Shown piece by piece: positions 56,550 to 59,443 of a stretch of DNA of 64,000 nucleotides. Positions within the stretch are counted from its first letter, which is position 1. The number at the start of each line of letters is the position of its first letter. The notes below the pieces were generated by a model that was given only the letters and a program-made list of their open reading frames with translations, was not told the DNA's origin and did no database searches. Made by a program: the position numbers and the translations under genes. Source of the DNA: Anaerolineae bacterium (lineage in GTDB: Bacteria; Chloroflexota; Anaerolineae; Aggregatilineales; Ch27); the NCBI GenBank assembly GCA_013178165.1, contig JABLXG010000003.1, positions 165,711-229,710 of the forward strand. Reading direction: 5' to 3'.

Positions 56550-56560
56550 TAGCCTCCTGA

Positions 56561-56588
56561 GGGGGCGCGGTGCAAGCCGCGCCCCCTT
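56561..56588 (+). terminator. Terminator after the serine hydrolase
   Basis: A perfect 10-bp stem (GGGGGCGCGG/CCGCGCCCCC, loop TGCAAG) is followed by TTGTA, a weak T tail, 11 bases after the stop. Confidence 0.6.
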
Positions 56589-56625
56589 GTAGCACTCTGC
56601 CAAAAACACCCTGTCAAAAACAACC

Positions 56626-56654
56626 TTGACATCCCCCGGGCTTTGACTTATGCT
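56626..56654 (+). promoter_or_regulatory. Promoter of the T-box/thrS operon
   Basis: TTGACA (56626-56631) and TATGCT (56649-56654) are 17 bases apart. A second, overlapping pair TTGACT (56643-56648) and TATTAC (56665-56670) has 16. Transcription should start within about 15 bases upstream of the riboswitch stem I. Confidence 0.7.
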
Positions 56655-56664
56655 GGCAAATACA

Positions 56665-56960
56665 TATTACTGAATGCGTTGATCGGGACATGTTTGCCCG
56701 CCTGCCCGCCCAGAGAAGGCGCGCGCCGGAAGTTCGCTTCCTGTTTGCGCTGAGAGCGCGCCCGCGGTTCCAGCTGGTGAACACCCCCCGTGAGCGGCGG
56801 TCGCAAGTGGCGGCTTTTCCCGCCGCGAAGATCGCCCGGTTGGCCCCGTTATCAGCCGCATAAGGCGCGCCCTCTACAGAGAGGGAGCGTGAAGTTGGGT
56901 GGAACCGCGTGGTCTGATCGTTGGCCTCGCCCCAATACCAGGGGCGAGGTTTCGCTTTTT
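56665..56960 (+). ncRNA. T-box riboswitch (threonine)
   Basis: The leader has a stem I beginning GATCGGGACATGTTTG, a CAGAGA element (56711-56716), and GGTGAACACCCCCCGTGAGC on the 3' side of stem I, where ACC (56783-56785) is the likely specifier; CAC shifted by one base is the alternative. The T-box sequence TTGGGTGGAACCGCG is at 56895-56909, its UGGA bulge fitting a tRNA 3' end with discriminator U. Uncharged tRNA-Thr would favour the antiterminator. It controls the downstream small gene and thrS. Confidence 0.88.
56925..56960 (+). terminator. T-box-controlled intrinsic terminator
   Basis: CCTCGCCCC pairs with GGGGCGAGG around AATACCA, followed by TTTCGCTTTTT. It overlaps the region competing with the antiterminator. 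Confidence 0.85.
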
Positions 56961-56999
56961 CCAGGCCGCGCCTGAGTGTCATAGTTAGAGAGTGCAGCG

Positions 57000-57365
57000 A
57001 TGTATACCGTCAAGCGAGTCTGGTTGGACGACACTGAAGGCATGCGCACAGGCAGCGTTGATGTACTGGCCGAGATGGACGATCAATCCCTGTGGATGGC
57101 CCGCTTTGTGACCATCCCCTACCTGCAGGAGCAGATGGACTACGGTCTGCAGGCCAGCCGCAGCCTGCGCAACACGCCCGAGGTGCGCTACGCCACCATT
57201 GAAACACGGCACATCATTGTCGACCGGCTGGATATCGACACCATCGAGGATGTGATCGACAACCTGCTGGCCCTGGATGTTTTTGAGAGTATGTTCGCCC
57301 TCGTCTCCGACCCGACGATGGCCGCCGTGATCGGCGCTCAGCCAGCCATTGTGCGTCAGGCGTAG
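57000..57365 (+). CDS. Small protein of unknown function in the thrS operon
   Basis: The 121-residue product (MYTVKRVWLDDTEGMRTGSVDVL, then IPYLQEQMDYGLQASRSLR and IIVDRLDIDTIEDVIDNLLAL) looks like a compact alpha/beta protein without membrane segments. No family was recognised. It lies directly after the T-box terminator, so it is read only when threonyl-tRNA is scarce, together with thrS 275 bases downstream. A weak GAGAG precedes the ATG. It may assist tRNA-Thr charging or quality control, but that is only suggested by its regulation. Confidence 0.68.
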   Translation: MYTVKRVWLDDTEGMRTGSVDVLAEMDDQSLWMARFVTIPYLQEQMDYGLQASRSLRNTPEVRYATIETRHIIVDRLDIDTIEDVIDNLLALDVFESMFALVSDPTMAAVIGAQPAIVRQA

Positions 57366-57405
57366 ACGTGGACGTGTGGGGAGACCAAACCGAGGAGCGA
57401 GAACT

Positions 57406-57453
57406 ATGACTGATGATGATACCAGCGCCACCATCACTCTTAGCCCCCGGTAA
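57406..57453 (+). CDS. Threonine-rich leader peptide before thrS
   Basis: A 15-codon ORF reading MTDDDTSATITLSPR has a strong ribosome site, GAGGAG, eight bases before its ATG, and ends TAA. Four of its codons are Thr (ACT, ACC, ACC, ACT), reminiscent of thrL-type leader peptides. It starts 41 bases after the small gene and is followed by stem-loops. Too short for a normal gene. Ribosome stalling on these codons would mean low threonyl-tRNA. The attenuation role is inferred. Confidence 0.55.
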   Translation: MTDDDTSATITLSPR

Positions 57454-57610
57454 GGACCGTCTGCACGGGTTCTTGCCGCGCCGGGGGCCACGTGAACAGC
57501 CAAACCGGGGAGGCAGGGCGCCGTGCAGACCGCCTTTATCCCCCTCTATCTTTGCCAGCTGCATACTGTGCAGACTAGCCGCCGGGCGGTAGGCCCGTCT
57601 GGCGGCTGCA
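57443..57610 (+). promoter_or_regulatory. Structured thrS leader with alternative stem-loops
   Basis: Three stems can be seen: GCCCCCGG with CCGGGGGC (57443-57450, 57481-57488) starting inside the leader peptide; CTGCA with TGCAG (57559-57573); and AGCCGCC with GGCGGCT (57577-57583, 57601-57607). The octamer GTGCAGAC occurs twice (57523, 57568) and CTGCA recurs at 57606, so alternative pairings exist. No U-run follows, which favours translational control. Confidence 0.45.
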
Positions 57611-57640
57611 GTGGCCCGTTGATCACAGTCGAGGAGTACC

Positions 57641-59443
57641 ATGCAACGCTACGAAGAAAGCAAACTGTACCGCATCCGTCACTCGGCGGCGCACATCATG
57701 GCCCAGGCTGTCCTGGAACGCTTCCCAGAGGCCCAGATCGCTATCGGCCCGCCTATCGAGGACGGTTTCTACTACGACTTTGACCTGCCCCGCCCGCTGA
57801 CGCAGGAAGACCTGGCGGCGATCGAGCAGCGGATGCGCGCCATCATCCGCGAGGGACATCCCTTTGTGCGCCGGGTCGTCAGCGCAGAGGAAGCCCGCCG
57901 TCTCTTTGCCAACCAGGTTTACAAGCTGGAGCTGATCGACGGGCTGGAAAAGGGCGCTATGGACGAGGACGGCAACCCGATCGATGGCCCGGCGGTCATC
58001 ACGACCTACCGGCATGACACGTTTGAGGACCTCTGCCGGGGGCCACACGTGGAAAACGCCAGCGAGATCAACCCGGACGCAGTCAGCATCACCTTCCGGG
58101 AGCCAGCCGGGGCTTACTGGCGCGGCGACGAAAAGCGCCCGATGCTCACCCGCATCTACGGCACAGCCTGGGAGACGGCCCAGGAGTTGGAGGAGTACCT
58201 GAACCTCCTGGAAGAAGCCAAGAAGCGTGATCATCGCGTGCTGGGTCAGAAGCTCAACCTGTTCGTGATCGACCCGCTGGTCGGCAAGGGCCTGCCCCTG
58301 TGGAAGCCCAAAGGCGCGCTCGTCCGCGAAGCGTTGATCGACTTCATGCGCGAGGCCCAGCGCGAGGCCGGTTACCTGCCGGTGGTGACGCCGCACATCG
58401 GCAACCTGGACCTGTACCGTACCTCCGGCCACTACCCGTACTACAGCGATAGCCAGTACGCGCCGATCCAGGTCGACGAGGAGCAGTTCCTGATCAAGCC
58501 GATGAACTGCCCGCACCACTGCATGATCTACAAGAGTGAGATGCACTCCTACCGTGACCTGCCGCTGCGCCTGGCCGAATTCGGGACGGTCTACCGCTAC
58601 GAGAAAAGCGGCGAGCTTTCCGGGCTGACCCGCGTGCGTGGCTTCACCCAGGATGACGCCCATCTGTTCGTGACGCCGGAGCAACTCCTGAGCGAGTTCA
58701 TCGGCGTAGCCGACCTGATCCAGCGCGTCTTCCGTACCCTGGGCATGGCCGACTTCCGCGTGCGTGTTGGCACGCGTGACCCGGAATCGGACAAATACGT
58801 CGGCGCACCGGAAAGCTGGGAGAAGGCTACGGCAGCAATCATCGAAGCCTGCCAGCATATGGGTCTGGACTACACGATCGAGGCTGGCGAGGCGGCTTTC
58901 TATGGCCCCAAGCTGGACTTCATCGTGCGTGATGTGCTCAAACGGGAATGGCAGCTCGGCACGGTGCAGGTGGACTACAACCTGCCGGAGCGCTTCCAGC
59001 TGGAATACATCGGCGCGGACGGCGAACCGCACCGCCCGGTGATGATCCACCGTGCGCCGTTCGGCTCGCTGGAGCGCTTCATGGGCATCCTGATCGAGCA
59101 CTTCGCCGGGGCGTTCCCGGCCTGGCTCTCGCCGGTGCAGGTGACGCTGATCCCGGTGGCTGACCGGCACGTCCCTTACGCTCAGCAGGTCGCCGCGCGG
59201 CTCAAGGCTGCTGGCTTCCGGGCGGAGGTAGACGACTCTAACAACCGCATGAGCAACAAGATCCGCATCGCCCAGGGGCAAAAGGTGCCCTATATGCTGG
59301 TCGTGGGCGACCGCGATGTGGAGGCGCAGGCGGTCAGCGTCCGCCTGCGCAGCGGGGAAGACCTGGGGGCCATGCCGGTGGAGGCGTTCATCGCCCGGCT
59401 GGGCGAAATCGTCAAATCGCGCGCGCTGGAGTTATGGCCGTAG
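57641..59443 (+). CDS. thrS: Threonyl-tRNA synthetase lacking the N-terminal TGS domain
   Basis: The 600-residue class II synthetase charges tRNA-Thr. It starts directly in the editing domain (RHSAAHIMAQAV, H14-x3-H18; then RGPHVENASEI), followed by motif 1, the zinc-binding catalytic core (IKPMNCPHHCMIYKSEMHSYRDLPLRLAE), motif 2 and 3, and the anticodon-binding domain (VQVTLIPVADRHVPYAQQV to EVDDSNNRMSNKIR). Most bacterial ThrRS have about 640 residues with an N-terminal TGS domain; none is present and no in-frame start extends upstream. GAGGAG lies five bases before the ATG. Confidence 0.95.
   Translation: MQRYEESKLYRIRHSAAHIMAQAVLERFPEAQIAIGPPIEDGFYYDFDLPRPLTQEDLAAIEQRMRAIIREGHPFVRRVVSAEEARRLFANQVYKLELIDGLEKGAMDEDGNPIDGPAVITTYRHDTFEDLCRGPHVENASEINPDAVSITFREPAGAYWRGDEKRPMLTRIYGTAWETAQELEEYLNLLEEAKKRDHRVLGQKLNLFVIDPLVGKGLPLWKPKGALVREALIDFMREAQREAGYLPVVTPHIGNLDLYRTSGHYPYYSDSQYAPIQVDEEQFLIKPMNCPHHCMIYKSEMHSYRDLPLRLAEFGTVYRYEKSGELSGLTRVRGFTQDDAHLFVTPEQLLSEFIGVADLIQRVFRTLGMADFRVRVGTRDPESDKYVGAPESWEKATAAIIEACQHMGLDYTIEAGEAAFYGPKLDFIVRDVLKREWQLGTVQVDYNLPERFQLEYIGADGEPHRPVMIHRAPFGSLERFMGILIEHFAGAFPAWLSPVQVTLIPVADRHVPYAQQVAARLKAAGFRAEVDDSNNRMSNKIRIAQGQKVPYMLVVGDRDVEAQAVSVRLRSGEDLGAMPVEAFIARLGEIVKSRALELWP

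Follow-up and report, generated by a model that had tools for sequence, protein, structure and literature searches.

E. coli leaders of the thrL and trpL type are ribosome-mediated transcription attenuators. In the rtpA (anti-TRAP) operon of B. subtilis, T-box control of transcription is combined with a leader peptide on which ribosomes stall in a tRNA-dependent manner, according to the summary given in PMC11255114 (citing Chen & Yanofsky 2003, 2004). The actinobacterial LEU element upstream of leuA consists of a leader ORF joined to a pseudoknot (PMC1262725). Upstream of hisS, T-box and leader peptide have been exchanged for one another between lineages (PMC2965389). In an earlier T-box survey, the Chloroflexi were represented by only two genomes, both of Dehalococcoides, for which ile and trp T-boxes were listed (PMC2494555). 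The locus described here, upstream of the threonyl-tRNA synthetase gene thrS, contains both a T-box and a Thr-rich leader ORF. The pairing of a T-box with a leader peptide is known once, for tryptophan, and is not known for thrS or from the Chloroflexota; the original prediction for this DNA had taken the pairing to be undescribed altogether, which has to be corrected in view of rtpA as summarized in PMC11255114. A literature search, with subscription papers mostly outside its reach, returned no report describing the present element upstream of thrS or in any member of the phylum.

The window, i.e. the whole stretch of 64,000 nucleotides that was analyzed, belongs to a 4.2-Mb draft genome. Its thrS locus comprises promoter, T-box, terminator, orfA, leader ORF and thrS, with the following features.

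56626-56654, + strand: sigma-70-like promoter, TTGACA-17-TATGCT, 10/12 consensus matches (0.3 expected in shuffles)
56670-56937, + strand: T-box leader (RF00230), specifier ACC at 56783-56785, T-box sequence around 56894-56912
56923-56960, + strand: intrinsic terminator of the T-box (terminator scan)
57000-57365, + strand: orfA, 121-aa protein, adjoins thrS throughout the order
57392-57397, + strand: GAGGAG, ribosome-binding site of the leader ORF (from the sequence)
57406-57453, + strand: Thr-rich leader ORF MTDDDTSATITLSPR with stop codon, 15 codons, four of them ACN, the last Thr codon 15 nt before the stop
57445-57458, + strand: segment 1, the 5' arm of hairpin S1, holding the stop codon (57451-57453)
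57459-57486, + strand: segment 2, with a2 (57459-57466, pairs d), b (57468-57478, pairs segment 1 or c) and the lower 3' arm of S1 (57483-57486)
57512-57530, + strand: segment 3, with c (57512-57520, pairs b or e) and d (57523-57530, pairs a2)
57531-57536, + strand: segment 4 (e), can pair c in the weakest of the helices, no U-run after it
57631-57636, + strand: GAGGAG, ribosome-binding site of thrS (from the sequence)
57641-59443, + strand: thrS, threonyl-tRNA synthetase, matches to tRNA_SAD, tRNA-synt_2b and HGTP_anticodon

Within 56560-57660 only one promoter-like and only one terminator-like site were found, both of them those of the T-box, and for this reason the leader ORF is most likely located on the T-box transcript. 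In most relatives the start of the leader ORF overlaps the stop codon of orfA or lies within 18 nt of it. No family could be assigned to orfA despite its conservation between T-box and thrS across the order. Several families possess an additional gene, orfB (57-77 aa), directly 5' of thrS, characterized by EWANVG..GGMFRP and a C-terminal W.PH.RCC; it is placed between the leader (or the T-box) and thrS (loci L041, L043, L048, L053, L055 and L069) and gave no match in Pfam or NCBIfam. The domain search returned no TGS domain for the thrS product. Two tandem copies of thrS were observed in G015 (C25:314625-318253; L016/L045), the first of which matched only piecewise, as if broken.

A T-box followed by its terminator had been predicted at the head of the operon, together with the suggestion to run the Rfam T-box model, and both features are located where they had been placed: RF00230 aligns over its full length (positions 1-219 of 219) to 56670-56937 with 47.6 bits (E 3.9e-9 on 1 kb), and the terminator occupies 56923-56960. 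The score is below the Rfam gathering score of 93 bits, and the T-box is missed by a default Rfam scan. The thrS T-boxes of relatives reach 93.9 and 112.5 bits, which indicates that the low score in the window reflects divergence and not a lack of parts. The specifier, read by alignment position, is ACC (Thr), in agreement with the synthetase gene downstream, and is also ACC in the relatives wherever a simple pattern was found. T-boxes are present at orthologous positions in most of the leader-bearing relatives. Five more T-boxes were identified in the genome of the window (L001-L005); by sight they precede valS, an asnS/aspS-like gene, pheS, leuS and a trpB-like gene.

The 15-codon ORF at 57406-57453, with its GAGGAG and four Thr codons, could be confirmed in the sequence as predicted. 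The regions upstream of thrS were then compared across the order, and ORFs were sought between orfA and thrS (or orfA and orfB). A Thr-rich ORF precedes thrS or orfB in 24 genomes representing 18 genera and four families (f1, f4, f6 and f7); the proposed combination of a Thr T-box for the operon with a Thr-codon leader ORF close to thrS is supported. Within f1, the family of the window, all five genomes carry the ORF (MTDDDTSATITLSPR in the window, and MTDDDTSTTITLSPR, MTENARLTTITLSPR, MTEDETFTITPGPR and MTDDDTGTTIRPGISPR). The leader peptides outside f1 are quite unlike these, yet also rich in Thr, e.g. MTAMLPDTPTGDTTTDGTTGRHR and MTEPDTDGTGTGTPLLTRQGA; apart from the Thr pattern, the peptide is without conservation between families. 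Among 18 genus representatives, with the first two residues left out, Thr accounts for 80 of 293 residues (27%), compared with 4.9% in the long ORFs of the window. Read in the leader frame, this DNA contains 27% ACN triplets, vs 7% and 3% in the two alternative frames. In 12/18 genera the last Thr codon stands exactly 15 nt before the stop (1.5 expected from residue permutation), and the last four codons are free of Thr in 18/18 (4.6 expected). The 24 ORFs had initially been chosen by eye, partly on their Thr content, a bias that was mitigated by a blind repeat in which every gap ORF with a length of 8-50 codons was sorted by a strong S1+S2 structure (see below) at the stop codon; those with the structure average 26% Thr, vs 5% in the rest (p 2.6e-10). 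The leader ORF is not a chance ORF. It is a short ORF with a ribosome-binding site and enriched in cognate codons, as expected of a leader-peptide attenuator.

The stop codon of the leader is located inside the 5' arm of hairpin S1, the loop of which pairs downstream (S2; 57523-57530 in the window). The original prediction had correctly placed the end of the ORF in the 5' arm of a hairpin; the two further stems it had assigned to the region before thrS are not unrelated structures, but are replaced by S1, S2 and a set of competing helices. The S1+S2 arrangement was scanned against 1000 dinucleotide shuffles and exceeds them in 4/5 genomes of f1 (p<=0.013), 11/11 of f4 (p<=0.022) and 4/6 of f7 (p<=0.005). 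The Fisher combined p is about 4e-21 over the 18 genera, the f4 sequences being alike and the f4 genera therefore not fully independent. The scan did not detect the arrangement in G004, G041 and G059, and the result was marginal in G009. The S2 arms of f7 change their letters and stay paired (GAGACGGAA/TTCTGTCTC, GGAACTGAA/TTCAGTTCC, GGAGTCGAA/TTCGACTCC and GAGCCAGGCA/TGCCTGGCTC); the MAFFT alignment of f7 displaces the stems by one base and was excluded from counting. S1 and S2 together could form an H-type pseudoknot, a kind of fold that nested-fold tools cannot score.

In f1 and f4, the 3' arm of S1 (b) can pair either with segment 1 (helix 1:2) or with c downstream, the latter beside a2:d, which results in a long alternative hairpin (2:3); c can also pair with e (3:4). 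Only S1 and S2 were seen in f7, with no 3:4 helix. The 2:3 helix of f1 contains four pairs with compensatory double changes, and 94% of the cells are paired, while the 1:2 helix of f1 varies through wobbles only. Loss of the ORF or of its Thr codons in close relatives, and a lack of covariation, had been named beforehand as outcomes that would count against the leader; neither occurred among the close relatives. Support for the 3:4 helix is weak, and its predicted formation modest. Column 40, in segment b, is constrained three ways: it forms G-U or A-U pairs with the U of the stop codon, but G-C or A-U pairs with c, and both partners are kept at once. When equilibrium folding was computed with the last Thr codon occupied by a ribosome, 2:3 formed in 13 of the 14 cases tested; it was weaker with the ribosome at the stop codon. 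The mutually exclusive helices of f1 and f4 are thus placed for a decision by ribosome position. Covariation within f4 alone was not above shuffles because the f4 sequences are nearly invariant. A covariance model built from f4 (plus G015) recovers those 12 genomes and none of f1, so that the element has diverged too far to be captured by a single model; no Rfam family was found for the leader element.

In our reading, the charging of threonyl-tRNA is probably sensed twice in one transcript, first by the T-box and then by the leader, which most likely acts as a ribosome-position sensor. At the level of the sequence this is supported by the T-box, the conserved Thr-rich ORF, the fixed distance from Thr to stop and the conserved competing helices; we infer from these the stalling, the sign of the control and the output step. 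Uncharged tRNA-Thr read by the T-box would allow RNA polymerase to pass the terminator at 56923-56960 and switch on orfA and thrS. The ribosome translating the Thr-rich leader ORF, directly before thrS, would then report charged Thr-tRNA. While waiting at a Thr codon, it would have its leading edge just before the stop codon, so that S1 (1:2) would be blocked and a2b:cd (2:3) could pair; at the stop codon it would cover part of segment 2 and set segment 3 free. The 2:3 form would permit expression of thrS and the other form would lower it, most likely through Rho acting in the untranslated gap 5' of thrS. Rho-dependent termination appears to be a reasonable choice for the output step. Rho is encoded in the genome, and C exceeds G in the gap before thrS in 24/24 genomes; the bias is mild and only suggestive of a Rho site.

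Intrinsic termination after the leader was considered and rejected, as there is no U-tract behind the 3:4-like helix and no terminator in 56560-57660 besides that of the T-box. The attenuation originally proposed for the leader is not supported in its classical transcriptional sense, and the element was not classed as a classical transcription attenuator because an intrinsic terminator as the OFF form is absent. A leader ribosome that decides instead whether the downstream gene (orfB if there is one, otherwise thrS) has its ribosome-binding site sequestered, as in rtpA, is possible although rather unlikely. In favour of such translational attenuation, the missing U-run speaks against intrinsic termination; there is a precedent in B. 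subtilis rtpA as described in PMC11255114, and in the sequences of G035, G058, G050 and G030 the SD of orfB is a possible pairing partner of segment e. The accessibility of the next gene's SD, however, shows no consistent change between a ribosome at the last Thr codon and one at the stop codon, being higher with the stalled ribosome in 15/24 genomes (means 0.45 vs 0.40), and the genome of the window (G000) is without a long pairing to the thrS SD. On account of this inconsistent folding simulation, SD occlusion was not adopted as the general output. The S1 counts of the simulation include 2:3 pairs as well and were left out of account.

A protein- or ligand-binding pseudoknot resembling the actinobacterial LEU element, in which the Thr codons would play little regulatory part, is improbable. 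The H-type geometry, with the S1 loop pairing downstream and an inter-stem gap of often 0 nt, survives sequence change, most clearly in f7, and the codons of the LEU element were reported not to matter (PMC1262725). The frame-specific enrichment of Thr and the fixed Thr-to-stop spacing nevertheless require that translation matters, and the base stem that the LEU element has between its codon run and the SD that follows is absent here, with no genome exceeding shuffles at p<0.05. A T-box that controls the operon alone, with the short ORF being either a chance ORF or an ordinary gene for a small protein, is close to refuted: the ORF is short and missing in several T-box-bearing relatives, but a peptide unconserved between families beyond its Thr pattern is unlike a functional protein, and frame-specific Thr and the association of structure with the ORF oppose chance.

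The distribution of the two sensors in the order bears on the origin of the serial arrangement. A T-box without leader precedes thrS in other Anaerolineae and in families f3, f5 and f8; both sensors are present in most of f1 and f4 and in part of f7; the leader alone is found in G009, G010, G015 and G031, where no T-box was detected near thrS even at E<=10 and T-boxes occur elsewhere in the genomes. Neither T-box nor leader was found in the thrS loci seen in f2. The leader is dispensable, since some relatives (G061, G020, G063 and G036) have retained the T-box without it. An early origin of the leader followed by several losses is compatible with the thrS tree. With T-box only, both, leader only and neither all represented, the locus may show one sensor in the course of handing over to another. 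A given gene usually has a T-box in one lineage and a leader peptide in another, whereas here both would read the same tRNA in one RNA. The single-sensor relatives on either side make sensor replacement directly testable, and raise the question of why one signal should be measured twice, as uncharged tRNA early and as ribosome progress late. Tentatively, all of this might be combined: an unlisted class of RNA element, a Thr leader ORF whose stop codon forms part of a pseudoknot or switch, could act in series with a T-box and without intrinsic terminator, the order could record all stages of sensor takeover at one gene, and a parallel case at leuS may exist in the same lineage.

The region upstream of leuS contains a T-box, its specifier read by sight as CTC, and a terminator separate from it, followed by a short ORF with the near-invariant core TGCCTTCTCGC (Cys-Leu-Leu-Ala). 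The flanks of the core are unlike one another; the ORF, of which MTGCPVSATTRCGVRCLLALRPEPR is one example, was seen in the order in about 11 genomes, and is located at L004:2270-2440 (G000:C1 near 385800) and in L173-L202. It is likely a second leader peptide, for leucine. A conserved basic peptide of 42-45 aa (RIRELLAELDRL...PVPVPVRVR) was also observed between the leuS T-box and leuS (L004 near 2037-2172, and the leuS loci of f7).

With the thrL/trpL type, the present element shares a leader ORF of cognate codons, a stop codon next to segment 1 and competing 1:2, 2:3 and, weakly, 3:4 helices; it differs in the lack of a U-tract terminator and in that its stop codon is inside segment 1. As at hisS, the same gene carries a T-box or a leader peptide depending on the lineage, but the sensors replace each other at hisS, whereas here most carriers have both on a single transcript, and relatives with one sensor occur as well. 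In the LEU element, too, the leader ORF contains a run of cognate codons, a conserved pseudoknot is able to refold into an alternative hairpin, and there is no clear terminator; apart from the missing base stem, the differences are the phylum, the amino acid, the gene and the T-box located upstream here. The rtpA operon is alike in that one transcript has two means of sensing uncharged tRNA for the same amino acid, a T-box and a leader peptide on which the ribosome stalls, a likeness that in the present case is seen at the sequence level. According to PMC11255114, rtpA concerns Trp and a regulator gene, with translation initiation as the output, whereas here Thr and a synthetase gene are concerned, and orfA separates the two sensors.
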